From positions 3,842,501-3,906,500 of the forward strand of contig NZ_CP150660.1 in the NCBI RefSeq assembly GCF_038023995.1: a DNA stretch of 64,000 bases, given 5' to 3'. Source of the DNA: Polaribacter atrinae (GTDB lineage: Bacteria > Bacteroidota > Bacteroidia > Flavobacteriales > Flavobacteriaceae). Under the pieces are notes generated by a model. The model did no database searches. It worked only from the letters and a program-made list of their open reading frames with translations, and had not been told where the DNA came from. Numbering within the stretch: position 1 is the first letter of the stretch; the number at the start of each line of letters is the position of its first letter. The position numbers were made by a program, and so were the translations under genes. This document shows positions 1 to 17,707 of this stretch, one piece after another.

Positions 1-124
1 TATGGTTTCGTTGCGGAATGGTTCGGCAGAACTATTCCGCCGTAAACCAAAGTTAGCAAATACGCAGGAATTTCCGAGAGGAAATTCCACCGCAATGAAC
101 TATAGCCGTTGTTGTACAACGTAC
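1..124 (-). repeat. attC-like site 1 (left end cut by window)
   Basis: The 3' stem arm GCAATGAACTATAGCC, three unpaired bases and GTT end the site. The window opens inside the 5' arm (TATGGTTTCGTTGC), which pairs with the 3' arm through one bulged T and G.T pairs at stem positions 7 and 12. The apical hairpin near 70-91 has 9-bp arms GGAATTTCC/GGAAATTCC around a GAGA loop. Sequence is diverged from sites 3-6 but the fold is kept. Confidence 0.75.
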
Positions 125-820
125 TTATTTTTCCGTGTCTATTAACCAAGCGTTTCTGTATTCCGTTATTTTACTTAATTCTTGTTTTAATTTTTGTCGG
201 TCTAAATCCATTTCGGAATATTCTGCTCGTTCATAGAGTAGGTTATAAGCCGATTGATGAAGTCCGTATTTTTTTAAGGTGTAAAAGTCAGATTCCGCAT
301 TTTTAGAATTCAGATTTTCGTTATCAAACTCAATTTTTAAAAGGTCAACCAATGTGTCATTTACAAACTGGTTTTCGTAATTCAGTCGTTTTTTTTCCGA
401 TTTCATTGAGTTAAATTCTTGGATAATTTCGTAAACGATTGAGTCGTTTTTCTCCGCCTTTCTTCGGTTCCAAAATTCAGCGTAATATTTTGTCTGTATT
501 TCAGGTTTGTTATAGGTAAGTTCCAAACTGTCCATTAAATTCTCAAAATTTTGTTTTATATAAATTCCTTGAATTAAAAATTCATTGTCACTTTTAAAAA
601 TCAGCCTTTCGAGTTTGTCGTAACCAAACTTTTTAAATGATTCGTGAACCATTTTTAAATTCTTCGGTTTTCGAATCCACGAGTTTTTTGTCCAGTCTCC
701 ATTTCTCAAATCGAAAAATGAAGTTTGGTTTTCTGCATAAAATTCCAATTCAGATTTCTTGTCGTTTTTACAAGACAGAAATAAGAAAATCAGAAGTAAA
801 ATTGTCAGCAGTTTGTTCAT
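125..820 (-). CDS. cassette A: predicted lipoprotein of unknown function
   Basis: The protein (231 aa from the chosen start) opens with a lysine, a hydrophobic stretch and a lipobox LFLSC, so it is expected to be a lipidated, envelope-anchored protein. The rest is charged, largely helical and not recognised. An upstream in-frame ATG at 838 would add six residues (MYNIPE) encoded by the recombination-site end; the ATG at 820 directly before the signal peptide is preferred. The stop lies at 125, a few bases from attC-like site 1. It is the only gene in its cassette. Function cannot be assigned from sequence. Confidence 0.75.
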   Translation of the reverse strand: MNKLLTILLLIFLFLSCKNDKKSELEFYAENQTSFFDLRNGDWTKNSWIRKPKNLKMVHESFKKFGYDKLERLIFKSDNEFLIQGIYIKQNFENLMDSLELTYNKPEIQTKYYAEFWNRRKAEKNDSIVYEIIQEFNSMKSEKKRLNYENQFVNDTLVDLLKIEFDNENLNSKNAESDFYTLKKYGLHQSAYNLLYERAEYSEMDLDRQKLKQELSKITEYRNAWLIDTEK

Positions 821-825
821 TTCGG

Positions 826-863
826 GTATGTTGTACAACGTTTAGTATAAGAGTAGAGGCGGA
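826..863 (-). repeat. attC-like site remnant (5' arm only)
   Basis: The right end of cassette A (GTTGTACAAC at 830-839) is followed by GTATAAGAGTAGAGGC, which resembles the 16-nt 5' stem arm of site 2. The hairpin, 3' arm and GTT end are missing, and the neighbouring gene stops at 865. The left end expected for cassette B, complementary to its right end at 2364-2377, is also absent. One deletion removing the rest of the site and the start of the cassette B border explains both facts. Confidence 0.6.
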
Positions 864-864
864 T

Positions 865-2343
865 TTAAGACCATAACTTTTTCCACCACGACTTAGGTTC
901 GTTGTTTGTACTAATTTTGGATTTTACACTATTTCCGCCATTACTTTTATATATTGTTGGGCGTTCGTTTTTTTTTGTAGGACTTTCCAATTTTTTAAGT
1001 CTATTTGTTTTTTCGTTAAACACTTCGTGGTTTACAACATTTCCCGATTTCCCCCAATTCTTGCGAACAATCATTCTGCCATCTCTATAAGTAAGTTCAG
1101 AATCTATTTTTCCATTCTCAAACCAAACTTTATAAGAAACACCATCTATATTTTGTCCATTTTCCAAAATTTGTTCCATTCTTTTTTGTCCATTCTCGAA
1201 GAAGGAAACTAAAGTTCCGTGATATTGCCCCTTGTTGTTAAATGGTTGAATAAATTGTATCTTCCCAGATTTATAGTAATCTTTCCAAGTACCATTTCTT
1301 AAGCCTTTTATGTAGTAATGTTCTTTTTGTAATTGTCCATTATCATACCAGTATTTTGCAATTCCATCAACTTTGTCATTTATATAGAGAGCTTTGTGTT
1401 TGAGTTGTCCATTATCGTGATATTCTTCATATTCACCATTTTTAATGATTGAGTGCAAATTGCTCTTGGGATTTTTGAGAGTTTCCTCAATATACAAATC
1501 TTTCTCATCCCAATTTTTTAAAATATGTTCAATTTGAAAAGGATATAATACTTCTGATAAAGTTTCAGCATCAAATTCTATCTCGGTGATGTCTTTTGGT
1601 AAATAAGTCAGTATTGCTAATGGAGGAGACAATTTTAAATTTTGATAAGCTAACAATTTATGATGTCCATCTAAGATATAGTATGAAGAGTCATAGTCGT
1701 TTGATGCAAAGTATGCATTTAACAATATAGCAAAAGGTCTTTCTCCATTTTTGATGATTTCTTCAAAGTACTTTACTCTATTCTGATCTATTTTATCGAA
1801 TGGTTGAGTAGCATAAAATGATTCGTCTCCAGTATATATTCCACTTGTTGTGTATTCCAGAATTTCGGAAGGATAGTATTTTTTGGAAATAGCATTTTCT
1901 TTCAAAAAATCCTTATGGTCTTTTATAACTTGCTCTAAATTGGAGGCATTAGTTGTTTTGTTAGCGAAAACGACTTCTAAAGGATTAAAATGTGTCTCTT
2001 TGAAATTATCATAGGAAGATTGATATTGAAAAAATTCTCTTTCGTTATTCGGATAAAAATTCAAACTATATGTTCCATTTTTAAATAGAGGTAATAAAGG
2101 TTTCAAAATTTCATATAAGTCTTCAATATTGTCCGAAAAATCATTATTCAGATTATCAGTTAGAGTTTTTTCTACTGATTTTCTATATTCTTCATTGTAA
2201 GGTAGGGTACAAAAATATTTTCCTACAGAACCACGGCAATCATACCAAACAACTGTTAAAGGATAATTAAAACGGATATAACTACCAATATCACTAAGCC
2301 CTATAGAGCAAATATTTTTTCCGTTTTCGATTTCAAATTTCAT
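865..2343 (-). CDS. cassette B: ParB-like/MORN-repeat (YwqK-type) protein
   Basis: About 492 aa from the start at 2343; the ATG at 2376 would add 11 residues overlapping the recombination site. A central ILDGHHKLLAY motif resembles the GHHR-type motif of ParB/sulfiredoxin-like domains. The C-terminal half carries at least four imperfect repeats of the MORN_2 type (DNGQLKHKALY, DNGQLQKEHYY, ENGQKRMEQI, ENGKIDSELTY), as in YwqK-family proteins often annotated as antitoxins. A basic, serine-rich tail ends in WWKKLWS. No catalytic activity can be claimed. The gene ends against a truncated recombination site, so its extreme C-terminus may derive from a deletion. Confidence 0.7.
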   Translation of the reverse strand: MKFEIENGKNICSIGLSDIGSYIRFNYPLTVVWYDCRGSVGKYFCTLPYNEEYRKSVEKTLTDNLNNDFSDNIEDLYEILKPLLPLFKNGTYSLNFYPNNEREFFQYQSSYDNFKETHFNPLEVVFANKTTNASNLEQVIKDHKDFLKENAISKKYYPSEILEYTTSGIYTGDESFYATQPFDKIDQNRVKYFEEIIKNGERPFAILLNAYFASNDYDSSYYILDGHHKLLAYQNLKLSPPLAILTYLPKDITEIEFDAETLSEVLYPFQIEHILKNWDEKDLYIEETLKNPKSNLHSIIKNGEYEEYHDNGQLKHKALYINDKVDGIAKYWYDNGQLQKEHYYIKGLRNGTWKDYYKSGKIQFIQPFNNKGQYHGTLVSFFENGQKRMEQILENGQNIDGVSYKVWFENGKIDSELTYRDGRMIVRKNWGKSGNVVNHEVFNEKTNRLKKLESPTKKNERPTIYKSNGGNSVKSKISTNNEPKSWWKKLWS

Positions 2344-2362
2344 CCTGTTTATTTGTGTTTTT

Positions 2363-2508
2363 TCAATGACGCCCAACGGTCTCGGCTATGAGTAGTTGCG
2401 TGGGTTAACACTTAACTTTGCAAGTACACACCAAACTGAAAATCCGCGAGGATTTTCAGAAGTAGGCGAGAACAAGCAATTACTTATAGCCATTGTTGTG
2501 CATAGTCT
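2363..2508 (-). repeat. attC-like site 2
   Basis: From AAC (2375-2377): six unpaired bases, 16-nt arm GGCTATGAGTAGTTGC, an inner hairpin with arms GAAAATCC/GGATTTTC around GCGA, the fully complementary 16-nt arm GCAATTACTTATAGCC (G.T at positions 7 and 12), three unpaired bases, then GTT at 2495. The stem differs from sites 3-6 by compensating changes, which supports a selected fold rather than plain sequence conservation. Confidence 0.85.
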
Positions 2509-3474
2509 TTATTTAAATAATTCCTTTCTACTCTTCAAATTAATTCCTTCAATTTCATTATGCTCTTCGCTTAATAAATCTTCAATAGTCAGATTTTCAA
2601 GTGTATTATATTTTATCAATAATCGCTGTAATTTTGGAAAAGATAATGAGTTGTAAAAAAGAAGAAAAAGTTCTGGAATAGACATTTGTGCTTGAATAAA
2701 TTCCGCATACTGTTTAAATTCCGCTTTGGCTTTCTCAATCTCTTTATTTCTTTCCGATTGGTTTTTAATTAATTTAAGTCTTTCTATTCTTTCGTTTTCT
2801 GTTCTTTCAACAAATAATAATATGTGGTAAATATGTCTAAAGTAATGACCTATAACGAAATGAAATTTATTAAAGAATATAGCATAAAGTCTTTCCGCTC
2901 TTTCTAATCCTTTCAACTTTGAAGAACTTTCCCAAAGTTCCGAGTCAATTTTATAGTACTTAAAAGTGAATGAGGTTTTTCTCCATTTAGTTAAACTCTC
3001 TTCTTCCTCTTCATTATGAGGTTCATCTTCTGGACCTTGCGGATTCCATACTCTATGTTCTATAAATTTAGGATTTGATAATGTATTATCGATTCGTTGC
3101 AGTTCAAATCTTGATTGGTTGAAAAAATCTCGTCCTTTAGCTTCTCTACTGTTCCTTTTATTGTAGGACTTTAAGTCAAAAATCGTAGTCGAAATATCAT
3201 TCGCTATTTGGTGTTGAGATTTCAATAGATTGAAAAAAGTCGTTTGAAAATTCTGGTCTTTAAATTCTTCTTTAGTTTCCTTTAATTCAGTTCTTTGCAA
3301 AGACAATTCTTTTTGTTGAAGAAAGATAGAATAGATTATTCCTGCTAATGCAAGTCCCGAAAAAAGAGAGTTAATAAACCCAAACTTATCTCCAAAAGCA
3401 CCTCTATCGGTCACAGAACAATATAAATTGTCGACGACTATCCAACTGATTATCCATAGTGTAACTACGAGCAA
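2509..3474 (-). CDS. cassette C: putative phage abortive infection protein (putAbiC-like)
   Basis: About 321 aa. Two N-terminal membrane segments flank a short loop, and the second runs into IYSIFLQQKELSLQRTEL and a QNFQTTFFNLLKSQH segment typical of the putAbiC family (putative phage abortive infection protein). A long charged, helical cytoplasmic part follows. The start is uncertain: no ATG lies between an in-frame stop near 3518 and the membrane segment, so the TTG at 3474 or another non-ATG codon is used, or the N-terminus is damaged. The stop lies 14 nt from the recombination-site GTT. A role in phage defence is inferred from the family, not shown. Confidence 0.75.
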   Translation of the reverse strand: MLVVTLWIISWIVVDNLYCSVTDRGAFGDKFGFINSLFSGLALAGIIYSIFLQQKELSLQRTELKETKEEFKDQNFQTTFFNLLKSQHQIANDISTTIFDLKSYNKRNSREAKGRDFFNQSRFELQRIDNTLSNPKFIEHRVWNPQGPEDEPHNEEEEESLTKWRKTSFTFKYYKIDSELWESSSKLKGLERAERLYAIFFNKFHFVIGHYFRHIYHILLFVERTENERIERLKLIKNQSERNKEIEKAKAEFKQYAEFIQAQMSIPELFLLFYNSLSFPKLQRLLIKYNTLENLTIEDLLSEEHNEIEGINLKSRKELFK

Positions 3475-3524
3475 TATCAGCCAAAAAAAATTCTTTATTT
3501 TATGTTCTTTTTCGATGGTTTCTT

Positions 3525-3672
3525 AGATTATGCACAACGTGTTTGTATATGGTTTGTTGCGTGGTTTAAGCAACTAATTTAGTAAATAATTACCGACCAA
3601 GAAAGTCCGCGAGGACTTTCGTAAGTAGGCGAGAAGCTAGCAATAAATTATATACGGTGTTAGGGCACGTAT
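3525..3672 (-). repeat. attC-like site 3
   Basis: AAC at 3536-3538, arm GTATATGGTTTGTTGC, inner hairpin GAAAGTCC-GCGA-GGACTTTC at 3601-3620, arm GCAATAAATTATATAC, and GTT at 3659-3661. The two 16-nt arms pair completely if three G.T pairs are allowed. The outer bases 3525-3535 belong to cassette C and 3662-3672 to cassette D, so they are not complementary to each other. Confidence 0.88.
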
Positions 3673-4484
3673 TTATTCGCTAATGTTCCTGCTCCATATA
3701 ATAGTTTGAATAAAATTCCAGCTCCAACAATTACGTTAATTACTGGAATCATCATTAGTCCCGCAATTATTGTAAATTTCATTACTTTCATTCCAGTCAG
3801 TTTGATAAATTTAATTTTTAAAGTATTCAGAGTTATTTTGTTTTCTCGATACAATTTAAACAAATAAAAAGAAGAAATAGCAACTGAAATTGCTGGCAAA
3901 GTTGGAATATAATCCCAAAGTTCATCATTTTCGTCAAGCTCAATTAGTTTGTCTACAAAATCGTGAACATCTGTTGTTAATTCCTCGTTTGAGATTCCGC
4001 TTGTTTCTAATTCCATTTTTACGGCAAGTTCTTCTGTTATAAGAATTTCGCCTTCTTGATGGTTATCAATCCAATCTTGCACGTAGGAAGAATTATCTGT
4101 TGCTTTTAATTGTATTTCTGTTATTTCCCCTGTGATATTGTCTGTTAAAAGAATGTCTGTATTTTGATGGTTTGAATTTGTAAACATTGAAGCAGTAATA
4201 CTGTCTCCATCATTATTTTCAATTTCAACAAATTGAATTTCGTGTAAAATACCTTTTACGTTGTTACTTAAGCCTATTAGTTGATTTTCGTCAAAATCTT
4301 GTAAATAGGTACTAATTTCCGCTGTGGTTTGATTTTTAAGGTTATGGTTAGCTCTTTTTAATGCTTCTAAAATATAATTTTCATTTTCAGTTAAAGATTC
4401 GGGGCTTCCATAAGCAATTTTTGCTAATGTTGTAACAATTAAAATATTATCGAATTCTTTTTTTAAGTACTTAATTGTTGACAT
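3660..4484 (-). CDS. cassette D: unknown protein with possible nuclease-like core and C-terminal membrane helices
   Basis: This 274-aa protein is not recognised with confidence. Residues about 75-135 (VKGILHEIQFVEI, NTDILLTD, EITEIQLKAT) resemble a PD-(D/E)xK-type arrangement (aspartate, then E-I-Q-L-K), which is only a pattern match. The last 70 residues contain about two hydrophobic segments. It overlaps the upstream DUF697-like gene by one base, so the two are probably translationally coupled. Its TAA stop (3660-3662) lies inside the GTT of attC-like site 3, showing how tightly the gene is fitted to the cassette boundary. Confidence 0.6.
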   Translation of the reverse strand: MSTIKYLKKEFDNILIVTTLAKIAYGSPESLTENENYILEALKRANHNLKNQTTAEISTYLQDFDENQLIGLSNNVKGILHEIQFVEIENNDGDSITASMFTNSNHQNTDILLTDNITGEITEIQLKATDNSSYVQDWIDNHQEGEILITEELAVKMELETSGISNEELTTDVHDFVDKLIELDENDELWDYIPTLPAISVAISSFYLFKLYRENKITLNTLKIKFIKLTGMKVMKFTIIAGLMMIPVINVIVGAGILFKLLYGAGTLANKYVP

Positions 4485-5026
4485 TATAATTCATTCTTTT
4501 GCTTATGAATCTCTTCTTTTTTTTCTTTTGATTTTTGTTTTCCTTCTGCTTTTGCTTTTTTAAAAATACTTTTAATCATTTCAGGGTCAATTTTCTCCCC
4601 TTTAATCTTCTTTTCAAAATAGTAATCCATTACTTTTCCCATACCATATGTAAGACCAAAAACTAAAGGAATTGTTGTAAAACCAGAAATGAAAGGTAAA
4701 ACGGTTTTGTAAGCACCAATTGCTAATTGTTGTGATAAAAACCCAAGCCCAACTAAACCAGCAAGCTCTTTAAAAATTTCACTTGCGCCTGCTTCTGAAA
4801 TACTGAAACCTCTAATATCAGCGATTTTTTTCCCCATATAAGCTTGAATTGGAGTAAGAACAAAAATGTCTGCAAAAGGTATTGGTTGCACAGCAATAGC
4901 AGCACAAGTAGTTCCAAAAACTGTGCAAATTCGTGTAACTTTTTGGTCGTCAGTTAAGTCAGTCCGAATTTCAATATCAGTAACTTCTTTTTTTATTCTT
5001 TCTTTTGCTTTTTCTAAAATTTCCAT
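4484..5026 (-). CDS. cassette D: DUF697-like membrane protein
   Basis: 180 aa. The segment from PIPFADIFVLTPIQAYMGKKIA through the glycine-rich hydrophobic stretches GLVGLGFLSQQL and GFTTIPLVFGLTYG matches the style of DUF697/YcjF-like domains, which usually accompany small GTPases; no GTPase partner is visible here. The N-terminus (MEILEKAKERIKKEV) is amphipathic and the C-terminus is a highly charged lysine/glutamate tail. A shortened copy of its first 29 codons lies upstream at 5209-5313. Function is unknown; a membrane role is likely. Confidence 0.65.
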   Translation of the reverse strand: MEILEKAKERIKKEVTDIEIRTDLTDDQKVTRICTVFGTTCAAIAVQPIPFADIFVLTPIQAYMGKKIADIRGFSISEAGASEIFKELAGLVGLGFLSQQLAIGAYKTVLPFISGFTTIPLVFGLTYGMGKVMDYYFEKKIKGEKIDPEMIKSIFKKAKAEGKQKSKEKKEEIHKQKNEL

Positions 5027-5035
5027 TTTTAAAAT

Positions 5036-5191
5036 TTATTTTTCATTTTCATTTGGAGATTCTTCATAGGCCTCTTTTATTTTCATTTTCATTTCATCAT
5101 AGTCTTTTTTGATTTCTTTTTTACTGATTACCATTTGCTCTTTACCTAGTTTTATTTCTTTTAAAATAAATTTTTTTATTTGTTTGAACAT
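5036..5191 (-). CDS. cassette D: 51-aa charged protein, copy 1
   Basis: Reading MFKQIKKFILKEIKL at the start and AYEESPNENEK at the end, this 51-aa lysine/glutamate-rich, probably helical peptide is nearly identical to copy 2 at 5324-5479 at both ends but differs in the middle (about residues 15-26). It stops 10 bases before the DUF697-like gene start. Both copies remain open despite divergence, which argues that they are real genes. No family is recognised. Confidence 0.6.
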   Translation of the reverse strand: MFKQIKKFILKEIKLGKEQMVISKKEIKKDYDEMKMKIKEAYEESPNENEK

Positions 5192-5208
5192 TGTATTTTG
5201 TTTTTTAA

Positions 5209-5313
5209 TTACCAGAAATTTGGGTCTTTTTGGTCGTCTGTTAAGTCAGTACGAATTTCAATATAGGTAACTTCTTTTTTTATTCTTTCTTTTGCTTTTT
5301 CTAAAATTTCCAT
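5209..5313 (-). pseudogene. truncated copy of the DUF697-like gene
   Basis: 34 codons: the first 29 match the start of the intact DUF697-like gene with one change, then the frame runs into DPNFW and a stop, the same ending as the gene at 5497-5778. It is the joint created by the 288-bp tandem duplication, through the short shared stretch encoding D-D-Q. It is probably a non-functional remnant, although a 34-aa peptide could still be made. Confidence 0.75.
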
Positions 5314-5323
5314 TTTTTAAAAT

Positions 5324-5479
5324 TTATTTTTCATTTTCATTTGGAGATTCTTCATAGGCTTCTTTTATTTTCATTTTCATTTCGTCATAGTCTTTTTTGA
5401 CTAATTTTTTTTGTTTATCATATTCTTCTTTACCTTCTTTTATTTCCTTTAAAATAAATCTTTTAATTTGTTTGAACAT
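5324..5479 (-). CDS. cassette D: 51-aa charged protein, copy 2
   Basis: Paralogue of the gene at 5036-5191, 288 bp away. Starts MFKQIKRFILKEIKE and ends AYEESPNENEK. The middle part (EGKEEYDKQKKLVKK) differs from copy 1. It lies 18 bases after the stop of the 93-aa gene, in the same orientation, so the genes of this cassette look like one transcription unit. Unknown function. Confidence 0.6.
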   Translation of the reverse strand: MFKQIKRFILKEIKEGKEEYDKQKKLVKKDYDEMKMKIKEAYEESPNENEK

Positions 5480-5496
5480 CGTATTTTGTTTTTTAA

Positions 5497-5778
5497 TTAC
5501 CAAAAATTTGGGTCTTGTTGGTCGTTGTCTCCATCATAATCAAATCCTTCCATTAAGCTATTATGGTCATTGTGTCTATTATAATTGTGTCTATTAGATT
5601 CTCTTTTAAGATATTCAATTGTATTATCAATAGAATCACATTCCTCTATCTCTTTCTCTATTTTAAATTCTTTAATAAATTTTTGGATTAATTTCAATTT
5701 TTTTCTTGGTATTTTTTCCATTTGCTTTAATTCAAATAAGTAACCAAGGATAAATGTCAATAATTCTCTATTTTCCAT
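5497..5778 (-). CDS. cassette D: unknown 93-aa protein
   Basis: Helical N-terminal half with many lysines and glutamates, then an Asn/His/Asp-rich tail (RHNYNRHNDHN, then DYDGDNDQQDPNFW). Not recognised. Its last five codons were copied into the tandem duplication downstream. It lies 14 nt after the 100-aa gene. Confidence 0.55.
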   Translation of the reverse strand: MENRELLTFILGYLFELKQMEKIPRKKLKLIQKFIKEFKIEKEIEECDSIDNTIEYLKRESNRHNYNRHNDHNSLMEGFDYDGDNDQQDPNFW

Positions 5779-5792
5779 ATTTTTTTAAATTA

Positions 5793-6095
5793 TTAAAATT
5801 TGTGAGAATTATTAAAAAATTTAGATTTTATTCCTAAAACATCTGCAATTTTAGTAATCATTTTTTTTACTTCTTTTTTTTCTATATATTTTTCTTTTGA
5901 TATTTTTTCTATCCTATTATCTAACCAATTTAATGTTTGAGTTAAATCTACGTTTTTACTTTTTTCGTAATTATCTAAAATTGAATAGTATTCTTCAATT
6001 GAATATTTTCCTATATACTTTCGGCTTTCTATATATTCTTTAAGGTATTCCTCTTCATAAGTATTTTTTTTAGTATAGTCTATTTCTTTTTTCAT
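5793..6095 (-). CDS. cassette D: unknown 100-aa protein
   Basis: First gene of cassette D in reading direction. It is rich in lysine, glutamate and tyrosine (YTKKNTYEEEYLKEYIESRKYIGKYSIEEYYS) with no signal peptide or membrane segment. The ATG at 6095 is about 60 nt from the IS30 left end, so the cassette's original promoter region now holds the transposon. Function unknown. Confidence 0.55.
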   Translation of the reverse strand: MKKEIDYTKKNTYEEEYLKEYIESRKYIGKYSIEEYYSILDNYEKSKNVDLTQTLNWLDNRIEKISKEKYIEKKEVKKMITKIADVLGIKSKFFNNSHKF

Positions 6096-6153
6096 ATTTA
6101 TAAAATAAGTATTATTCTTTATATTTCATTTTTTGTAGATATAACGATCTTGG

Positions 6154-7248
6154 ATTCAATGTTGTAACGCAACAAAACGTTTTAGCTTTTAGATGTTACT
6201 AAGCTACAAATTTCAGTTCAATATCCATCATTTCTTTTGGTGTTTTATACCCTATAATTTTTCGAGGTCTATTGTTTAATTTTTCTTGAATAATTTGAAG
6301 TTGTTTTAAGTCGATTTCATTAAAATTAGTTCCCTTTGGAAGGTATCTTCTAATGAGTCCATTTGTGTTTTCGTTTGTTCCTCTTTCCCATGAAGAATAG
6401 GGGTGAGCAAAATATATTTTCATACCTGTTTTTTTAGTGATTTTTTCGTGTCTTGCCATTTCAATACCGTTGTCATATGTCATAGATTTTTTATAAATAG
6501 GATTTAATTTATTTAATATTTTAGAAAATTCATTAGCTACTTCATCCGCTTTTTTAGATTCTAATTTAATAATTAAAGTGAATCTTGTTTTACGTTCTAC
6601 AATGGTTCCTATGGCGCTTTTATGGTTCTTTCCAATGACTAAATCTCCTTCCCAATGTCCAACTTCATTTCTGAGTTCAATATGCCCTGGTCTATTGTCA
6701 ATGCTGACTTGGTTTATAATCTTACTTCCACCACCACGTCTTTTTTTAGAGGTTCTACGTCTTGTTTTTTTACGAACTAATAGTTTAATTAACTTTTTGT
6801 TTAAACGGGCTTGTGGTCTGGTATAAATGTGTCTATAAATAGCTTCATGCGAAATAGACATTATCGGATCATTGGGATATAATTTTTTTAGTCTTCCAGA
6901 AATCTGTTCAGGAGTCCAGTTTAATAAAAGACCTTTATATACAAAATATCTAAGTAAAGAATATGTACTTATTTTATCTAAATTTCTCTTGTTTAAATAA
7001 TCTGATTTAGCACACCAATGAGCTAAATCAGCATCATATTTTTCACCTGGTTCTGTTACAAATTTATTAACTTCTCTACCGATAGTTGAACGAGATCTAT
7101 CAAGTCTATTTGCTATATAAGATTTAGTCTTTTTTTCCTTTAAAAGTGTCTGAATAATAACTCTTTCTTTTAAAGTTAATCGTCTATGTTTTTTTAATTC
7201 CATTTTACAAATCTATTAATTTAGATTTGTTGCGTTAAGTTATTGAAT
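6154..7248 (-). mobile_element. IS30-family insertion sequence
   Basis: One transposase gene lies between imperfect terminal inverted repeats. Left: ATTCAAT, five bases, AACGCAACAAA (6154-6176). Right: TTTGTTGCGTT, five bases, ATTGAAT (7226-7248). GG flanks both ends (6152-6153, 7249-7250) and may be a 2-bp target duplication. The element sits 21 bp inside the right edge of cassette D, upstream of its genes. The inner part of the inverted repeat shares the 10-mer TTTGTTGCGT with the stem of the attC-like sites. Confidence 0.85.
6199..7203 (-). CDS. IS30 family transposase
   Basis: 334 aa, usual length for the family. An N-terminal helix-turn-helix (about residues 8-48: LTLKERVIIQTLLKE, KSYIANRLDRSRSTIGREV) is followed by a DDE core: GHWEGDLVIG (first Asp), TYDNGIEMARH (second Asp) and SSWERGTNENTNGLIRRYLPKG (Glu, with the N-G-L-I-R-R context typical of IS30). 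All catalytic motifs are present and the frame is intact, so the element could be active. It lies inside its own inverted repeats. Confidence 0.95.
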   Translation of the reverse strand: MELKKHRRLTLKERVIIQTLLKEKKTKSYIANRLDRSRSTIGREVNKFVTEPGEKYDADLAHWCAKSDYLNKRNLDKISTYSLLRYFVYKGLLLNWTPEQISGRLKKLYPNDPIMSISHEAIYRHIYTRPQARLNKKLIKLLVRKKTRRRTSKKRRGGGSKIINQVSIDNRPGHIELRNEVGHWEGDLVIGKNHKSAIGTIVERKTRFTLIIKLESKKADEVANEFSKILNKLNPIYKKSMTYDNGIEMARHEKITKKTGMKIYFAHPYSSWERGTNENTNGLIRRYLPKGTNFNEIDLKQLQIIQEKLNNRPRKIIGYKTPKEMMDIELKFVA

Positions 7249-7265
7249 GGAGGGATTTTTCTTTT

Positions 7266-7413
7266 ATATGTGCCCTAACGTGTTTGTATATGGTTTGTTG
7301 CGTGTTTCAAGCAACTAATTTAGTAAATAATTATTGACCAAGAAAGTCCGCGAGGACTTTCGTAAGTAGGCGAGAAGCCAGCAATAAATTATATACGGTG
7401 TTGGCAGTAGTTT
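7266..7413 (-). repeat. attC-like site 4
   Basis: AAC at 7277-7279, the same 16-nt arms as site 3, hairpin GAAAGTCC-GCGA-GGACTTTC, GTT at 7400-7402. The right border of cassette D (GTGCCCTAAC, 7270-7279) is the exact complement of its left border (GTTAGGGCAC, 3659-3668), although the two are 3.6 kb apart and separated by an IS element. Confidence 0.88.
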
Positions 7414-7709
7414 TATAGATTCAACTTCAAATTTTCATCTTTCAAATTTAATAAAGGTGTTTGAAAAAAGATTCCACTTTCCAAACTTTCCACTTTATTA
7501 AATACTACAGACACAATTAAATCTTCATTGGTAAAACCTAATATTGATTCTTCTGCGTCTAAAGTATCTGAATAGATTTTTAGAAATTCTTGAAATTGGT
7601 CGAAACTTGTTGGGCGAATTATAATTTCTTCAATTACCTCCTCATTGAATTTTAATCCAACAATATGAGAATTATTTGTCTTTAGTTTTTGTGCTTCTTG
7701 ATAAGTCAT
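7413..7709 (-). CDS. cassette E: unknown 98-aa protein
   Basis: Soluble, acidic protein with no signal peptide or recognised motif; the middle (PTSFDQFQEFLKIYSDTLDAEESILGFTNEDLIVSV) is probably alpha/beta. It is the last of four genes in this cassette, 6 bp after the secreted protein gene. The stop at 7413 is 10 nt from the recombination-site GTT. Confidence 0.6.
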   Translation of the reverse strand: MTYQEAQKLKTNNSHIVGLKFNEEVIEEIIIRPTSFDQFQEFLKIYSDTLDAEESILGFTNEDLIVSVVFNKVESLESGIFFQTPLLNLKDENLKLNL

Positions 7710-7715
7710 ATTTTT

Positions 7716-8084
7716 CTAATTACAATCACATTTATTATTAAAAATATATTTATGAAATCTTTCCCCATATGTTGTATTGTGTTGATTTACACTTGTTTTA
7801 AAAATTACCCAAGTATCAAATGAAACACCACAAAAAACATATTTTTTAGTTTCATATGAATTTTTTAATTTTATTTCAGCTATTATTAAAGTGGAATTAT
7901 TTCTAAAATGATAAGCTTTAACTTTTTTTAACCAAGAAGATTCCGAAAGTTCATATGAACTTATTTCTTCATTATAAAAACTTTCCTCTTTAGCATACTT
8001 AATTAAATCTTCACATTTCGTTTTTTGTGAAAAAGTATTAAAGGATAAGAATAATATTACAATTAATAGATATTTTTTTTTCAT
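7716..8084 (-). CDS. cassette E: secreted protein, KTSC-like
   Basis: 122 aa with a clear signal peptide (MKKKYLLIVILFLSFNTFSQ) and then a small domain with four cysteines. The order of an S-S-W-L-K-K-V-K-A-Y strand, a hydrophobic strand pair, and TYGERFHKYIFNNKCDC at the C-terminus resembles KTSC-type domains of Bacteroidota secreted proteins. That is pattern recognition, not a search result. Expected location is the periplasm or outside the cell. Same orientation as its neighbours, 32 bp from the J-domain gene. Confidence 0.6.
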   Translation of the reverse strand: MKKKYLLIVILFLSFNTFSQKTKCEDLIKYAKEESFYNEEISSYELSESSWLKKVKAYHFRNNSTLIIAEIKLKNSYETKKYVFCGVSFDTWVIFKTSVNQHNTTYGERFHKYIFNNKCDCN

Positions 8085-8116
8085 ATTAAGTTTTTTTCTT
8101 TTAATTTTTCATTTTA

Positions 8117-8632
8117 TTACTCTCCTTTAGCCATTGCATAACCTCCATATCCAAAAAGTGCTAATACTAATGATAAAAAAATTAAGCTAAAGTTACCTCC
8201 AAAAATTGCACCAATGAAACAAATAATTGAAAGTGGGAAAAATATAATAGTCAAAATCCAACCACACCCCATATTAGCAGTTTTTTTAATTTTTTTTCCA
8301 ACTAAAATTAGACTTTCTAATACGTTTTCAAATTGCTCATAAGACATACTTGCGTATTCTTTAGCTTTTTCTTCATATTTTTTATTAGAATAATTATTAA
8401 TTTCTACTTCTGTACTCTCTTTTTTTGATTTTAAATAGTTGTCGTATTCTATTCTAGAATTAAAATCTTTTAAAGTCTCGTAAGCAATGTTTATTTCAAT
8501 AAACCTATTATGAGCATTTTCCTCTTTATTTTTATCTGGATGATATTTTAAAGCTAATTTTCGATAAGCTTTTTTTAACTCATTTTCGGTCACATTCTCA
8601 TTGACATTCAAAATTTCATAAAAATTTCTCAC
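8117..8632 (-). CDS. cassette E: J-domain (DnaJ-like) membrane protein
   Basis: 171 aa. Residues 1-65 form a J domain ([23 protein letters not shown] with the HPD motif, and an F-x-x-I-x-x-A-Y-E-T-L segment), which stimulates Hsp70/DnaK ATPase. The C-terminal 55 residues contain two hydrophobic segments ([20 protein letters not shown] and [17 protein letters not shown]). The glycine-rich and zinc-finger parts of true DnaJ are missing, so this is a class C-like J protein recruiting DnaK to a membrane. It starts 4 bp after the stop of the next gene upstream. Confidence 0.85.
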
Positions 8633-8636
8633 TCTT

Positions 8637-8888
8637 TTACATATTATTTAGTGTAATAACTCTTTTAGATATTTCCTCATCTTTACTATGATGCTCTATA
8701 TATAAATTTATATACCTTTCAGCACTTGATTTTTTTTCTAGTCTTAAAAAATAATCTATTCTAAAAAGAACATCTTCTTTATTGTAAACTTTAAGAGTCG
8801 TGTTCATAACCTCTTCGTAGTCAGGGTCTCTTTTCCTGTTTTTAATAGCTCTTACTATTTCAACTCCTAATGACATTAGTATTCCCAT
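8637..8888 (-). CDS. cassette E: unknown 83-aa protein
   Basis: Short basic/helical protein ([27 protein letters not shown]) without recognised family. First gene of the cassette, four bases before the J-domain gene, so probably co-translated with it. About 140 nt of AT-rich leader separates it from recombination site 5; no convincing TAnnTTTG element is visible there. Confidence 0.55.
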
Positions 8889-9023
8889 TTTTTTTGTTTT
8901 TTAAATTAATTTGAATTATATAATGTGTTAATTTTTAGTAATTTTATTTTAATATATTTATTATCAGTTGTTTGTTTTGATAAAACCTTTCCGAAAAGTG
9001 ATTAGTTTTGTCAGAAATGAGTG

Positions 9024-9171
9024 GAATTACTGCCAACGTGTTTGTATATGGTTTGTTGCGTGTTTTAAGTAACTAATTTAGTAAATAATTACGGACAAAG
9101 AAAGTCCGCGAGGACTTTCGTAAGTAGGCGAAAATCCAGCAATAAATTATATACGGTGTTGCCAACTGGCT
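9024..9171 (-). repeat. attC-like site 5
   Basis: AAC at 9035-9037, the standard 16-nt arms, hairpin GAAAGTCC-GCGA-GGACTTTC, GTT at 9158-9160. The outer flanks differ between sides because they belong to cassettes E (left) and F (right border GTTGCCAAC). Confidence 0.88.
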
Positions 9172-9179
9172 TTTTTCAA

Positions 9180-9536
9180 TTAATAATCTTGAATTAAAAC
9201 TTCAGTAGGAATATGTAGAGTAGTGTTGAGTTTTCTAATCATATCTAGAGTCAGTTTTCTTTTTTTATTCAAAATTTCGCTAACTCTACTTTTAAATCCA
9301 ACAACTTCTGCTAAATCCTTTTGTTTCATTCCCATTTGTTCCATTCTGAATTTAATTGCTTCGATTGGGTCAGGCATTCCGATTGGGAATTGTTCATTTT
9401 CATATTTATCAATCAAAATTGACAGGATTTCCAATTCGTCTCCATCTTCCGTTCCTTTTTTTGCATCAAAAATTTCCTCAAGTCTGTTGAGTGCGTTTTG
9501 ATAGTCTTTTTCGTTTCTAATTGGTAATATTTTCAT
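9180..9536 (-). CDS. higA: cassette F: HigA-like antitoxin (XRE family)
   Basis: 118 aa. The N-terminal half binds the toxin in this family, and the C-terminal half is a helix-turn-helix (IEAIKFRMEQMGMKQKDLAEVVGFKSRVSEILNKKRKLTLDMIRKL). It lies downstream of the toxin gene with 2 bp between them, the usual HigB-HigA order. The product neutralises HigB and represses its own promoter, probably at the palindrome 9868-9882. The stop is about 20 nt from the recombination-site GTT. TA pairs are common stabilisers of integron cassette arrays. Confidence 0.9.
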   Translation of the reverse strand: MKILPIRNEKDYQNALNRLEEIFDAKKGTEDGDELEILSILIDKYENEQFPIGMPDPIEAIKFRMEQMGMKQKDLAEVVGFKSRVSEILNKKRKLTLDMIRKLNTTLHIPTEVLIQDY

Positions 9537-9538
9537 AA

Positions 9539-9832
9539 TTAGATATTATTTGCGTCAATTTTATCATATTCAGCGTGAGTTCCGATAAACCTTATCCAGC
9601 ATATTCTGTATTCAAAATTAAATTTTACAATCAAACGATAATTATTACCTTTAATATTGTAAACAATTCGATTGTCTTTTAAAATACTAGCACTCGGATA
9701 TTCACTTTTTAATTCGTTAATATTGTTCCATTCGGATTTTTCAGTTTCTCTATACCACGATTTTAATTGTTCTTCACAATCAGCGTGTTTTTCCCAAAAA
9801 TCTCGTAAAGTTCGTTTTGCGATTACTCTCAC
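9539..9832 (-). CDS. higB: cassette F: HigB-like toxin (mRNA interferase)
   Basis: 97 aa from the GTG at 9832, giving an N-terminus VRVIAKRTLRDFWEKHADCEEQLKSWY typical of HigB of the RelE superfamily. An ATG at 9874 would add 14 residues but lies inside the operator palindrome and upstream of the promoter element, so it is rejected. Later motifs fit the family: NNINELKSEYPSASIL, RIVYNIKGNNYRLIVKFNF, FIGTHAEYDKID. It probably cleaves ribosome-bound mRNA when not bound by HigA. Confidence 0.9.
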   Translation of the reverse strand: MRVIAKRTLRDFWEKHADCEEQLKSWYRETEKSEWNNINELKSEYPSASILKDNRIVYNIKGNNYRLIVKFNFEYRICWIRFIGTHAEYDKIDANNI

Positions 9833-9848
9833 ATTATAATTGTTTGAC

Positions 9849-9882
9849 GCAAAGATAATAAAAAAAGTTACCAATTTGGTAA
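9849..9882 (-). promoter_or_regulatory. higBA promoter and operator
   Basis: On the minus strand a TATCTTTGC element (complement of 9849-9857) matches the Bacteroidota TAnnTTTG box and lies 17 nt upstream of the higB GTG. Just upstream is the perfect palindrome TTACCAA-T-TTGGTAA (9868-9882), a likely HigA binding site. The cassette therefore carries its own regulated promoter. Confidence 0.7.
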
Positions 9883-9898
9883 TTAGTTCGGTTTTTTT

Positions 9899-10046
9899 AG
9901 CTTGTTGGCAACGTTTGTGTATATGGTTTGTTGCGTGTTTTAAGCACCTAATTTAGTAAACAATTACCGACCAAGAAAGTCTGCGAGGACTTTCGTAAGT
10001 AGGCAATAAGCCAGCAATAAATTATATACGGTGTTGTAAAACGTTT
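9899..10046 (-). repeat. attC-like site 6
   Basis: AAC at 9910-9912, the standard arms, a hairpin with one G.T closing change (GAAAGTCT-GCGA-GGACTTTC), GTT at 10033-10035. CCTA and TAGG flanking the hairpin can pair here, which sites 3-5 only partly allow. Confidence 0.88.
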
Positions 10047-10047
10047 T

Positions 10048-10794
10048 TTATCCAATTAGTTTGTTTAAATGTCTTTCTACTTTCATTTCTAAACTCACTA
10101 ATTCTCCTTTGTAAAAAACACTATTTATAATCCACGGAATTGGCATTTTTCGACCATCTTCTTGAGATTTAATGTGGTTAATTTCCAAAGGTATATTTTT
10201 CTTTTTTGCGTATTCTCTTAATAATTCATTTGTGTAAAATTCCGTAAATGGACAAGTATTCGAATAATATGCTGTAATTCCTTTGTTATTCGTACAATTT
10301 CCAGATTTTGCGCTTTCCATAAATTTCGGAAATTTAGCGTTAGGATTTGTTTTTAGTCCCCAAAGTTTAAAATAAGGTTGCGCCTCGTCAATAATTTCAA
10401 ATCCTTGATGTTCGAAAAATTTTGGGTCAGACATAAAAGGTCTTTTCTTATCGCTCGAAACTGCAATAATTCCGTCCATATCTTTTGAGTCGGCTAAACA
10501 TTGTTCCAACAATTTTTTTCCGTTACCTTTTCCTTTGAATTGTCCAGAAACCCAAAAACAATTAATTACCATAAAATTTTTTCCGATTAATGGAAGCCAA
10601 GAACTTTCAATCGGTACATATTCAATAAATACTTTTCCTCGAACGTCAACTTTTTGAAAATTGTAGCCATTTTTAAATTCTTTTTTCAGCCACTCTTTTT
10701 TCTTTTCATATCCGTTTCTGCATTTTTTGTCGCTTATTGCACAGCAAATATGCTCGTCTTGAATATTTTTATCTGTAAGTTTTAGAATTTCCAT
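10048..10794 (-). CDS. cassette G: GNAT acetyltransferase with YoaP-like C-terminal domain
   Basis: 248 aa. The N-terminal ~150 residues form a GNAT fold, with the acetyl-CoA motif region GQFKGKGNGKKLLEQCLAD following a central beta strand (FMVINCFWVSG). The C-terminal part (ITAYYSNTCPFTEFYTNELLREYAKKKNIPLEINHIKS) resembles the thioredoxin-like YoaP domain, with a lone cysteine in NTCPF. The substrate is unknown. The stop is about 13 nt from the recombination-site GTT, and the cassette has a promoter-like TACTTTTGA just upstream of the start. Confidence 0.8.
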   Translation of the reverse strand: MEILKLTDKNIQDEHICCAISDKKCRNGYEKKKEWLKKEFKNGYNFQKVDVRGKVFIEYVPIESSWLPLIGKNFMVINCFWVSGQFKGKGNGKKLLEQCLADSKDMDGIIAVSSDKKRPFMSDPKFFEHQGFEIIDEAQPYFKLWGLKTNPNAKFPKFMESAKSGNCTNNKGITAYYSNTCPFTEFYTNELLREYAKKKNIPLEINHIKSQEDGRKMPIPWIINSVFYKGELVSLEMKVERHLNKLIG

Positions 10795-10807
10795 TTTTTC
10801 GGTTTTC

Positions 10808-10816
10808 TCAAAAGTA
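10808..10816 (-). promoter_or_regulatory. promoter -7 element of cassette G
   Basis: The minus strand reads TACTTTTGA, a TAnnTTTG match, 14 nt before the ATG at 10794. A perfect 10-bp palindrome GATAATTATC lies upstream at 10841-10850. No clear -33 element is seen. Confidence 0.45.
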
Positions 10817-10881
10817 TAATTGATAAGCCTTTATTCCTATGATAATTATCAACTTTTCCAAGTTAGTTCGGGTGTTTTTGT

Positions 10882-11027
10882 AAATGTTTTACAACGGTTT
10901 TGTGTATGATTTGTGGCGTGTTCCACGCACCTAATTTAACAAATAAAAACCGTATAGAAAATCCGTGAGGATTTTCGTAAGTAGGCGAAAACTAGCCATT
11001 AATTATACACGTTGTTGGCAACAGTAT
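10882..11027 (-). repeat. attC-like site 7
   Basis: AAC at 10893-10895, arm GTGTATGATTTGTGGC, hairpin arms GAAAATCC/GGATTTTC around GTGA, arm GCCATTAATTATACAC, GTT at 11014-11016. The stem has 13 Watson-Crick pairs, G.T at positions 7 and 12 and one T-T mismatch. Differences from site 3 at stem positions 3 and 14 are compensated. The downstream gene reads through its GTT into the 3' arm. Confidence 0.87.
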
Positions 11028-11421
11028 TTTCTATTATTATTTCAGTCAGCTTATCAATATCGGATTTTTCAATTTCGCTTAAATCCAATTCAATTTTATT
11101 TCCGTTATTTTTCACAATAATCAGAATTCCGTTTTGTAAATCAGTTGACTTAACATCTTTGAAATTAAATGACTTCCCAAGAAATGATTTAATTCGAATC
11201 GTGATTCCAGCTTTATTCCATCCAACATAATATTTTCCAAAACTCATTCTTGCAAAGTAAATGACCATTCCAACTGAACCAATAATTCCCAACATCTTAT
11301 TCCATTCAGTTTTGGTTTCTCCAAAGATTTCAAATGTTCCAGAGAACATACAAGTAATTGTCAGAATTAGTAGAATTCCATTTTTCCAATCATTGAGTTT
11401 ATTAAATCTTATTCTTTTCAT
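10999..11421 (-). CDS. cassette H: small membrane protein, PH-like cytoplasmic part
   Basis: 140 aa. Two membrane segments (NGILLILTITCMFSGTFEIF and MLGIIGSVGMVIYFARM) are followed by a beta-rich part (YVGWNKAGITIRIKSFLGKSFNFKDVKSTDLQNGILIIVKNNGNKIEL) that resembles bacterial PH-like domains. The last residues (VANNVYN) are encoded by the recombination site itself, so cassette position could change the C-terminus. This is the first cassette after the recombinase. Confidence 0.65.
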   Translation of the reverse strand: MKRIRFNKLNDWKNGILLILTITCMFSGTFEIFGETKTEWNKMLGIIGSVGMVIYFARMSFGKYYVGWNKAGITIRIKSFLGKSFNFKDVKSTDLQNGILIIVKNNGNKIELDLSEIEKSDIDKLTEIIIENTVANNVYN

Positions 11422-11433
11422 ATTCGTTCTGTT

Positions 11434-11470
11434 ATATTGTTGCCAACTTGTTTATATACAGAGCTTTTAT
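11434..11470 (-). other. recombinase-proximal half-site (attI-like candidate)
   Basis: The right border of cassette H ends in GCCAAC at 11442-11447, complementary to its left border at 11014. The following TTGTTTATATACAG resembles the first bases of the 5' attC arm, but no hairpin or matching 3' arm follows before the recombinase stop codon at 11544. A non-hairpin site between recombinase and first cassette is what an attI would look like; a decayed attC is the alternative. Confidence 0.5.
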
Positions 11471-11543
11471 ACTGATCTTGTTCCGTTTTGGTGGGATATG
11501 CAGAAGTTTAGTGTCTTTATATCCATTTTATAAAAGTAAGTGA

Positions 11544-16933: not shown

Positions 16934-17707
16934 ATGAGTAGTTTATCAAAAAACATCAAACATTTAAGAAGGTTAAAAGGGCTAACACAAGAGTTTTTGG
17001 CGGAAGAATTGTCGGTAACAAGATCAAGAATAAGCTCTTATGAAGAGAGTAGGTCGTCACCTAGCATAGAATTTTTGATAGATTTTTCTGATTACTTTAA
17101 GCTGCCAATAGATATTATTGTAAGAAATGATTTGACAAAAGCAAAAGATGTTTCTTTTATTGAAGTCGGAAACAAAAGAGTACTATTTCCGATAAGTGTT
17201 GATACTGAAAATGAAAATTTGATTGAGGTGGTTTCTGCAAAAACTTCTGCTGGTTATTTATTGGGTTATGATGATCCTGAATATATTGAACAATTGCAAA
17301 AAATAAAATTACCTTTTTTACCAACAGGAAAACACAGAGCTTTTCCTATAAAAGGAGATTCTATGTTGCCTATGAAAGATGGTTCTTATGTAGTAGCTGA
17401 ATTTGTAGAAAATATTACAGATGTTAAAAATGGAACGTCTTATATCATAGTCACTAAAAATGATGGTATGACCTACAAACGAGTGTATGATCAAATTGAA
17501 GAAAAAGGAAGTTTACTTTTAAAACCAGATAACAGAGAATATCAGTCTTATGAAGTTCCCTTAGAGGAAGTTTTAGAACTTTGGAAATTTACTTGTAGCA
17601 TAAATACGCAAGAGTATGAAGAACACGAACTAAAATTGAGTAGTATTATGCAAATGTTTAATGGATTAGGGGTGGAATTAGAGGCTTTGAAGAAGTCTTT
17701 GGTTTAG
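16934..17707 (+). CDS. LexA-like repressor (XRE HTH + S24 self-cleaving domain)
   Basis: 257 aa. Residues 5-65 form an XRE helix-turn-helix (IKHLRRLKGLTQEFLAEELSVTRSRISSYEE). The C-terminal half is an S24/LexA-type domain with a cleavage site A106-G107 (TSAGYLLGY), nucleophile S143 (FPIKGDSML) and general base K182 (GMTYKRVY). All three are present, so RecA-stimulated self-cleavage is expected. It is divergent from the dinB-dnaE2-recombinase operon and probably represses it. It is more like phage CI repressors than canonical LexA (winged helix), so the operator should not be the classic LexA box. Confidence 0.88.
   Translation: MSSLSKNIKHLRRLKGLTQEFLAEELSVTRSRISSYEESRSSPSIEFLIDFSDYFKLPIDIIVRNDLTKAKDVSFIEVGNKRVLFPISVDTENENLIEVVSAKTSAGYLLGYDDPEYIEQLQKIKLPFLPTGKHRAFPIKGDSMLPMKDGSYVVAEFVENITDVKNGTSYIIVTKNDGMTYKRVYDQIEEKGSLLLKPDNREYQSYEVPLEEVLELWKFTCSINTQEYEEHELKLSSIMQMFNGLGVELEALKKSLV

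Follow-up and report, generated by a model that had tools for sequence, protein, structure and literature searches.

An integron-like cassette array headed by an Xer-like tyrosine recombinase in the chromosome of Polaribacter atrinae

Sedentary chromosomal integrons (superintegrons) comprise large arrays of one-way gene cassettes with varied cargo, including defence genes, in which the stop codons lie against the recombination site, the site ends read AAC and GTT, the two ends of each cassette are complementary to each other and an attI site lies beside the recombinase gene; all these traits recur at the locus described here. The R-box consensus of their attC sites is RYYYAAC / GTTRRRY. In Treponema-type integrons, the integrase and the cassettes lie on one strand, as in the arrays considered below, but the Treponema enzyme is an IntI, unlike the one found here. 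According to the account of attC structure in PMC2727003, the sites have AAC and GTT ends and a long R''/R' complementarity, and extrahelical bases on the R''-L'' arm are common to all known attC. The additional domain of IntI near patch III is described as defining and necessary (PMC9668308). The IntI insert has been reported to act together with the extrahelical bases of the sites. Two further systems are related to the locus through Xer enzymes. The archaeal XerA and bacterial XerC-XerD recombinases share their core fold and sequence family with the recombinase of the locus, which differs from them in heading cassette arrays and in having an extra N-terminal domain, and the genome has its own XerD. 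The pdif modules employ short double-strand dif sites and are not known to have an array-head recombinase. As described for Acinetobacter (PMC7399989), these modules are genes flanked by Xer recombination sites; the likeness to the present locus lies in this placement of genes between sites of Xer enzymes.

The DNA analysed here (the window) is a stretch of 64,000 nucleotides of the Polaribacter atrinae chromosome. In the explanation that we consider highly probable, the window holds the head of a very large chromosomal cassette array, and recombination at its hairpin sites is likely the work of a tyrosine recombinase of Xer-like type that has no IntI insert. On this view, cassettes would be excised, taken up beside the recombinase and reshuffled in the manner of integrons. 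We read the system as a working integron analogue, recombination itself being inferred. The features are as follows, with scores of the attC-like sites from the covariance model.

1..113, minus strand: attC-like site 8, truncated at the edge of the window, 36.9 bits
1..838, minus strand: cassette 8, ORF 125-838, leaving the window at its site
837..958, minus strand: attC-like site 7, weak, 45.1 bits, missed by nhmmer
839..2376, minus strand: cassette 7, 503 aa with MORN repeats, the ORF extending into site 7
2375..2497, minus strand: attC-like site 6, 87.5 bits
2377..3537, minus strand: cassette 6, putAbiC abortive-infection-like (PF16872), 2509-3474
3536..3661, minus strand: attC-like site 5, 113.9 bits
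3538..7278, minus strand: cassette 5, transposase with HTH_38 and rve domains, 6199-7203, by our reading of IS30 type
7277..7402, minus strand: attC-like site 4, 112.8 bits
7279..9036, minus strand: cassette 4, with four ORFs, of which 8117-8632 encodes a DnaJ-like J domain
9035..9160, minus strand: attC-like site 3, 114.7 bits
9037..9911, minus strand: cassette 3, HigB-like toxin 9539-9874 and HTH antitoxin 9180-9536
9910..10035, minus strand: attC-like site 2, 110.6 bits
9912..10894, minus strand: cassette 2, YoaP-like with a weak GNAT match, ORF 10048-10794
10893..11016, minus strand: attC-like site 1, 108 bits
10895..11446, minus strand: cassette 1, ORF 10999-11421, 140 aa, no Pfam family
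11445..11492, minus strand: putative attI, ...GTATATAAACAA|GTT, 96 bp past the recombinase stop, the G of G|TT at 11447; similar sequence past the stop in related loci; pairs with the far end of cassette 1
11544..12668, minus strand: tyrosine recombinase at the array head, 374 aa, Pfam PF00589, N-terminal domain (residues 1-95) and Xer-like core, predicted catalytic tyrosine at residue 355 from the alignment, without the IntI insert
12704..15655, minus strand: DnaE-type polymerase on the recombinase strand, 35 bp upstream of that gene
15667..16881, minus strand: DinB-type (Y-family) polymerase (PF00817), 11 bp upstream of the DnaE-type gene
16934..17707, plus strand: HTH and Peptidase S24 (LexA/CI-type) protein (PF01381, PF00717), divergent from the polymerase-recombinase run

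The initial annotation had recorded seven repeats separating co-directional gene units at positions 1-11447, with stops against the repeats, toxin-antitoxin and defence cargo and a recombinase at the array head; the end coordinate of this interval coincides with the first G|TT. These observations hold. Seven nhmmer sites reach the window, the covariance model adds a weak eighth, and all eight are on the minus strand, as are the longest ORFs of the units, among them the HigB-like toxin, the HTH antitoxin and putAbiC. The core motif CGTAAGTAGGCGA, with at most 2 mismatches, occurs 6 times against 0.31 expected (0/100 shuffles reach 6). As to extent, the interval proved to be the head end and not the whole, since the array continues for ~33 kb to the left of the window, to genome position 3809436. 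This array, B, spans ~44 kb with 31 nhmmer sites; a second, larger array, A, spans ~171 kb with 133, and three small groups of sites lie elsewhere in the genome. In total, nhmmer finds 170 sites, on one strand per array, and the covariance model 175 matches, delimiting some 160 cassettes in the chromosome. Of 161 cassettes, 126 have their longest ORF on the site strand and 11 on the opposite strand, and 24 contain no ORF of at least 60 aa; the orientation is mostly uniform, and the median distance from stop codon to site is 12 nt. Together, the cassettes constitute a large reservoir of restriction and toxin-antitoxin genes along with unknown ones.

The sites are hairpins of ~125 bp with a variable loop region, which also gives rise to sites of ~190 nt. 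In the best 150 of the 175 matches, 147 carry the AAC end and 147 the GTT end, triplets that are likewise present in attC as described in PMC2727003. The stem, which has two parts, covaries through Watson-Crick double changes and never through a wobble pair: in the site alignment, 98.3% of 1716 stem cells are paired, with 247 two-sided and 0 one-sided (wobble) changes, and none of 500 shuffles reaches the observed paired cells, two-sided changes or covariation score, while 1/500 reaches the number of pair types. In an alignment fitted to the covariance model and limited to the same best 150 of 175 matches, the stem arms measure 16 and 16 nt in 126 of 132 distinct sites and 16 and 17 nt in 6, with no extra base on the R''-L'' arm, that is, no extrahelical base, in any of the 132. 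The central spacer is unpaired and asymmetric, with 3 nt on one side (131/132) and 6 nt on the other (129/132). When the sites are rebuilt in circular form and folded, the bottom strand is the stabler in 157/157, and the R arms pair in 148. The attC-like traits present are the AAC/GTT ends, the own-end complementarity, the unpaired central spacer and the variable terminal structure, but the R-box consensus is rare (GTTRRRY at 12/161 cassette starts, RYYYAAC at 12/160 sites). A strict script of our own for canonical attC returned 0 in ten stretches, true-IntI ones included, and is too strict to be informative.

Folding repeats located just after stop codons could also be RNA elements, such as terminators or riboswitch-like structures, or REP-like repeats spread with genes. 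The relocation borders at G|TT and the own-end rule described below speak against this explanation, which we regard as extremely unlikely; an RNA element was rejected for lack of any Rfam match (E up to 0.1, window 1-13000) and of wobble changes in the 1716 cells.

The unit-private complementary borders of the initial annotation are seen on 160 cassettes, where the mean complementary run between the two ends of a cassette is 5.71 (capped at 7), compared with a shuffled mean of 1.15 and a maximum of 1.575 over 2000 shuffles. Each cassette matches its own two ends and not those of its neighbours; within a site as it lies, complementarity is at chance level only, and the private letters at the two ends are inverted, not direct. 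There are 39 pairs of near-identical cassettes in different places, 24 of them at 100% over the BLAST alignment, and 5 pairs link array A with array B or group E. Downstream, copy identity from G|TT outward is 100, 100, 64, 26, 31%, the shared stretch stopping at G|TT. Cassette 3 has copies at 98% in array A and at 96% in another species (G092), both ends breaking at CG|TT, and the xerD identity to the latter species is 72%. Across ten named genomes, xerD is 66-73% identical to that of the host, in many cases over a portion of the gene.

Two alternative explanations can be weighed against these data. The arrays might be fixed relics in which movement reflects old duplication by homologous recombination, given that the length and similarity of the sites would permit homologous exchange and that the left end of array A has no intact recombinase of the window type. 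This appears very unlikely, as exchange between sites would scatter breaks through the site, whereas identity in the 24 pairs still at 100% ends at G|TT on the downstream side, and a 96% cassette is shared between species whose xerD genes are 72% identical. Alternatively, modules might be swapped in the Xer/dif manner: recombination would act on double-stranded, dif-like cores where the repeats end, and the remaining repeat would be passive. The A-rich motif could be taken as one arm, the 6-7 variable letters as the centre and AAC as the other arm, and XerA is the best structural match of the recombinase, but the whole stem of the ~125 bp hairpins covaries. Moreover, private letters inverted at the cassette ends are not produced by conventional exchange and do not fit dif-type exchange, which makes this alternative quite unlikely. 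Capture and shuffling of whole cassettes, as in an integron, would agree with the G|TT borders and the inverted private ends, and the putative attI fits the same reading: the sequence that recurs before the first G|TT lies 96-111 bp past the recombinase stop in the window clade and 27-33 bp past it in the second clade, and the private pair of the first cassette is found near the recombinase in 13/14 loci with 0 to 2 mismatches.

The window could also hold an ordinary chromosomal integron with attC of a local type and an IntI that has diverged or lost its insert. The statement of the initial annotation that IntI is lacking is borne out by several comparisons, and we judge this reading unlikely. 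The recombinase scores 189.6 bits against TIGR02249 (integrase_gron), missing the curated cut-off of 265 by 75 bits; XerA structures score as high. Among 22 aligned recombinases (17 of which have a site within the ~1.5 kb examined), the GKG..R-to-LRH spacing is 60 aa in 21 and 63 in one, against 102 in 10/10 measurable IntI (of 13); the ~42-aa insert is absent in 22/22 and present in 10/10. The alignment to 2a3v comes in two parts, with the break between residues 213 and 243. In a quick tree, from which 17 long-branched or odd rows had been dropped beforehand and L256 left out, IntI (12 rows) forms one clade with support 100, the nearest rows being archaeal and Patescibacteria relatives; a single clade of Bacteroidota and IntI, a grouping named after the tree was seen, is rejected (p-AU 0.0155). 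On the absent insert, the missed cut-off and the position outside the IntI clade, we reject plain membership among IntI integrons; the absence of extrahelical bases in the sites and of IntI in the own-family genomes (0/15) also speaks against a diverged IntI. Independent assembly, as tentatively put forward in the initial annotation, agrees with the tree in so far as this quick, post hoc test separates the two lineages, although a common pre-IntI ancestor already using hairpin sites may have existed. The N-terminal domain has a predicted fold that weakly resembles the fork-DNA domains of XPB and SMARCAL1 (XPB/HARP); a profile search against PDB sequences yielded nothing useful (best E 0.053).

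The same layout recurs in other genomes: members of the recombinase family stand at the head of such arrays in Bacteroidota, both within Flavobacteriaceae and outside it. Site matches at recombinase loci number 22, in 19/31 loci, all downstream on the recombinase strand, and at named loci the 48 matches (E up to 0.1) fall in 16/80 loci, 46 of them likewise downstream on that strand. Within the own family, the recombinase is present in 14 and the sites in 11 of 15 genomes. In other taxa, own-end runs of at least 6 are found in 7/8 cassettes of Algibacter, 6/6 of Seonamhaeicola and 3/3 of Winogradskyella. Compared with superintegrons, the window type is distinguished by a recombinase without the IntI insert and, in Flavobacteriaceae, with an extra N-terminal domain, by sites without an extrahelical base and with few GTTRRRY starts, and, in most loci examined, by an array that reads in the same direction as the recombinase.

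By analogy with integrons, the substrate would be the folded bottom strand of the site, which the recombinase may cut at G|TT; a circular cassette, its two ends re-forming one complete hairpin, would enter at the attI-like site, and the crossover would be resolved by replication, as proposed for IntI. Since the sites contain no extrahelical base, strand choice would come from something else, and we propose the constant asymmetry of the 3-nt and 6-nt spacer between the two stems. The N-terminal domain, with its predicted fold weakly like fork-DNA domains, may contribute to holding the hairpin. Array A probably relies on a recombinase acting in trans.

If, as is likely, the recombinase captures and shuffles cassettes much like an integron, these bacteria would have a second type of gene-capture system. 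We see about an even chance that Bacteroidota possess a second kind of integron, convergent or surviving from a pre-insert state, whose hairpin sites lack extrahelical bases and are recombined by Xer-like enzymes devoid of the IntI insert. In that reading, the roles of the insert and the extrahelical bases would fall to a domain that binds fork DNA and to the asymmetric spacer, and some species would have placed the enzyme in a damage-induced mutagenesis operon controlled by a LexA-like repressor. The insert and the extrahelical bases are jointly absent, yet arrays of well over a hundred cassettes keep the own-ends rule and signs of movement; this renders the question testable, the enzyme itself being open to direct assay. 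Among the titles and abstract openings of published papers, few of them subscription papers, a literature search found no description of such arrays.

These genes could be overlooked in surveys where IntI and canonical attC serve to define integrons: R1 sites occur in 95 of 97 sampled genomes of the host genus, five of these 95 having one match each, while the 2022 IntegronFinder survey (PMC9024848) names a single complete integron for Bacteroidetes proper, that of Salinibacter ruber M1. At E up to 1, R1 has no match in six other true-IntI stretches (L267, L268, L269, L271, L272, L277), which need not hold attC arrays. R1 sites are also found near true IntI in two genomes, G101 and G161.

The chromosome of the host is a single contig of 4.01 Mb, and the window contains the head region of an array of gene cassettes that probably works like an integron. 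In the chromosome stretches examined, a nucleotide profile built from six repeats of the window and then iterated found 170 copies of the site, an attC-like hairpin repeat with AAC and GTT ends; within each array every copy lies on the same strand.

Sites found by the nucleotide profile
3809436-3853519: array B, the array of the window, 31 sites
1062967-1234224: array A, the larger array of the same chromosome, 133 sites
Three small groups, one of them group E: 3, 1 and 2 sites

The folded repeats of the initial annotation are borne out by R1, a covariance model built on 48 diverse sites chosen among 53 representatives, which places eight sites in the window and 175 across 344 kb; these counts are lower bounds, because the stretches examined are only part of the chromosome. 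The RNAalifold consensus comprises 13 pairs, with two-sided changes at 11. In an alignment of 132 distinct sites, which was fitted to the covariance model and thereby favours pairing (slid controls drop to 24-43%), pairing holds in 98.3% of the 1716 cells; 247 have changed on both sides and 0 on one side only. Watson-Crick pairs are thus kept without wobble steps, as would be expected for a hairpin of DNA and not of RNA. When sites are rebuilt as they would be in a circular cassette, folding is more favourable for the bottom strand than for the top in every one of the 157 (median -25.6 vs -20.5 kcal/mol; -10.1 kcal/mol in a control with shuffled letters, dinucleotides not kept). The stem spacer is asymmetric (3 nt against 6 nt), and the two stem arms are equal, at 16 nt, in 126 of the 132 distinct sites and differ by one, 16 and 17 nt, in six, so that by arm length none of them carries an extrahelical base on the R''-L'' arm.

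In integrons the two ends of a circular cassette jointly form one complete site, and this rule holds here too. In 160 cassettes, the letters after GTT complement those before AAC of the same cassette at positions 1-7 in 97, 93, 88, 89, 91, 89 and 71% of cases, and runs of complementary letters, counted up to 7, average 5.71 against 1.15 with shuffled partners (maximum of 2000 shuffles 1.575), which upholds the unit-private complementary borders noticed earlier; for the site as arranged in the array complementarity is only at chance level. Every cassette start (161/161) has an A ten letters after the G, outside the private stretch; we know of no such feature in attC.

Cutting at the border G|TT gives 161 cassettes with a median length of 917 bp. 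The longest ORF lies on the strand of the site in 126 and on the opposite strand in 11, while 24 lack any ORF of at least 60 aa; the last stop precedes the AAC of the site by a median of 12 nt (quartiles 9 and 19; 112/129 within -40 to +60 nt), and the median distance from the cassette start to the first ORF is 33 nt. Genes in one direction with stops against the repeats, as first described, are the prevailing arrangement. A family scan took in the ORF of the first cassette of the window and 120 from the 179 distinct ORFs of at least 80 aa, 121 proteins in all; of the 32 long ORFs outside it, 25 come from the sparse stretch on the right-hand side of array A. The scan matched 72 Pfam families, and in 10 of these the match is shared by two or more proteins. 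Restriction-modification proteins of type IIG and type III head the defence matches, in agreement with the defence cargo initially reported. Cassette 5 (window 3538..7278) contains a transposase element, by our reading of IS30 type, at 6154-7248, with 23-nt inverted ends at 6154-6176 and 7226-7248, and a direct duplication of about 288 bp at 4988-5525, whose copies are 84-92% identical.

Near-identical whole cassettes form 39 pairs (50 cassettes), 24 of them 100% identical over the BLAST alignment, and in five pairs one member lies in array A and the other in array B or group E. On the downstream side of the border, identity runs 100, 100, 64, 26, 31 and 26%; upstream it drops to the usual site-to-site resemblance. 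Cassette 3, the toxin-antitoxin cassette of the window, has copies in array A (98%) and in another species, G092 (96%), with identity breaking at CG|TT at both ends. Judged from these sequences, it very likely crossed between the host and G092, because it is 96% identical whereas xerD, assigned via the NCBIfam cut-off, is 72% identical; the copy in genome G062 (87%) could reflect vertical inheritance, being near the 82% of xerD. One 553-bp cassette occurs in array A in five copies that are 100% identical (loci L032 and L033; cassettes 14, 15, 21, 26 and 32) and is perhaps very active.

The tyrosine recombinase at the head of array B comes last in a run with two polymerase genes.

Genes at the array head (window positions)
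11544-12668, minus strand: recombinase, without the insert of the integron integrase IntI
12704-17707: dinB-type and dnaE-type genes of the run, both for translesion-type polymerases (gap of 11 bp between them, 35 bp from dnaE-type gene to recombinase), and the S24 LexA-like gene opposite them
18352-19740: second, phage-type integrase (PF00589), just past the polymerase module

A putative attI precedes the first G|TT: a GTATATAAACAA-type sequence 96-111 bp past the recombinase stop in the clade of the window and a CATATAACCC-type sequence 27-33 bp past it in a second clade. It holds the own-end partner of the first cassette, with at most 2 mismatches, in 13 of 14 loci with a site within reach; the exception, L079, reads GCT where GTT would stand. 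The N-terminal domain (residues 1-95), predicted alone from 33 alignment rows (pLDDT 86.5), weakly matches the HARP domain of SMARCAL1 first in Foldseek (E 0.027), and the best Z (6.7, also weak) goes to the N-terminal portion of XPB, with an rmsd of 1.9 over 57 residues. SMARCAL1 and XPB are both proteins of forked DNA, and the predicted resemblance serves as no more than a lead.

Divergent from the run is a gene for an HTH-S24 protein of LexA/CI type. Since LexA control is known for intI, a damage-induced recombinase is plausible here, but would not be general. Among 20 related loci the polymerase module is intact, rearranged, cut off or broken near the recombinase in six: G016 keeps the gene order of the window, in G030 dnaE ends less than 50 bp from the recombinase and the contig ends there, in G076 the module is nearby and reversed, and G037, G062 and G034 hold fragments. 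G050 has the S24 gene alone, more than 7 kb away, and the remaining 13 show no polymerase/S24 module within the stretch examined. LexA control of intI is the subject of PMC3108266.

The left flank of array A contains only ORFs resembling pieces of another integrase; at this end (L031, 115-1268) ORFs are similar by eye to the phage-type integrase of the window. The second recombinase of the family on the chromosome, at 2777149, adjoins one weak site (26 bits). Near-identical cassettes in both arrays suggest that a single enzyme may serve A and B.

Under a definition that demands the IntI insert and extrahelical bases, as in PMC9668308, PMC2727003 and PMC4792948, the system lies outside integrons. 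One classification of tyrosine recombinases describes an integron-like subgroup in which the insert 'is not fully conserved' (PMC8138268), so related enzymes may already be in such trees with their arrays unrecognised. No prior description of these arrays was found in the literature searched, which included no preprints and few subscription papers, and one may exist there. Integrons as such are already known in Bacteroidota: a review lists them for the phylum (PMC8618304), intI is recorded for the Bacteroidetes/Chlorobi group in a survey of 2008 (PMC2426708), and our search of 148 phylum genomes found true IntI in other classes.

The covariance-model search of relatives proposed in the initial annotation gave R1 matches in 95/97 genomes of the genus (E <=0.01, at most 36 matches scored per genome; a single match in 5 of the 95) and in 11/15 of the family (E <=1e-4). 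A recombinase relative is present in 67/97 genus genomes (E <=1e-40), and A2-type recombinases, related to that of the window, in 14/15 family genomes (E <=1e-60); IntI over the cut-off occurs in 0/15. Across the 148 phylum genomes, sites occur in 32 (E <=1e-4), A2-type recombinases in 52 (E <=1e-60) and IntI over the cut-off in 46. Around 31 recombinases (about 1.5 kb), all 22 sites, in 19 loci, lie downstream on the strand of the recombinase, as do 46 of 48 matches (E <=0.1) in 16 of 80 named loci, the exception being L129 with two upstream on the opposite strand. Of 80 virus-labelled loci, six have sites: L188 has one downstream on the same strand and L194 a weak one downstream on the opposite strand, and in four (L186, L174, L171 and L172) the R1-like sites lie upstream of the recombinase relative and on the other strand, with two in L186 measuring just 82 nt. 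Genomes G141, G149, G133 and G194, from another class, have a shorter recombinase of the same kind, whose gene is oriented away from the array.

Cassettes with own-end runs of at least 6
Algibacter: 7/8
Seonamhaeicola: 6/6
Winogradskyella: 3/3
Sphingobacteriales: 2/3
GWF2: 2/3
G141: 7/11
G133: 2/6

In L278 (G161:C116, 14148-16252) a true IntI is adjoined by a degenerate R1-type site, possibly of a cassette acquired from the other system; the other sites of that array differ by eye. In L270 (G101, 3840-6503) a true IntI with a frameshifted-looking end has R1-type sites at a distance of 4-6 kb, and this genome has an R1-type recombinase elsewhere.
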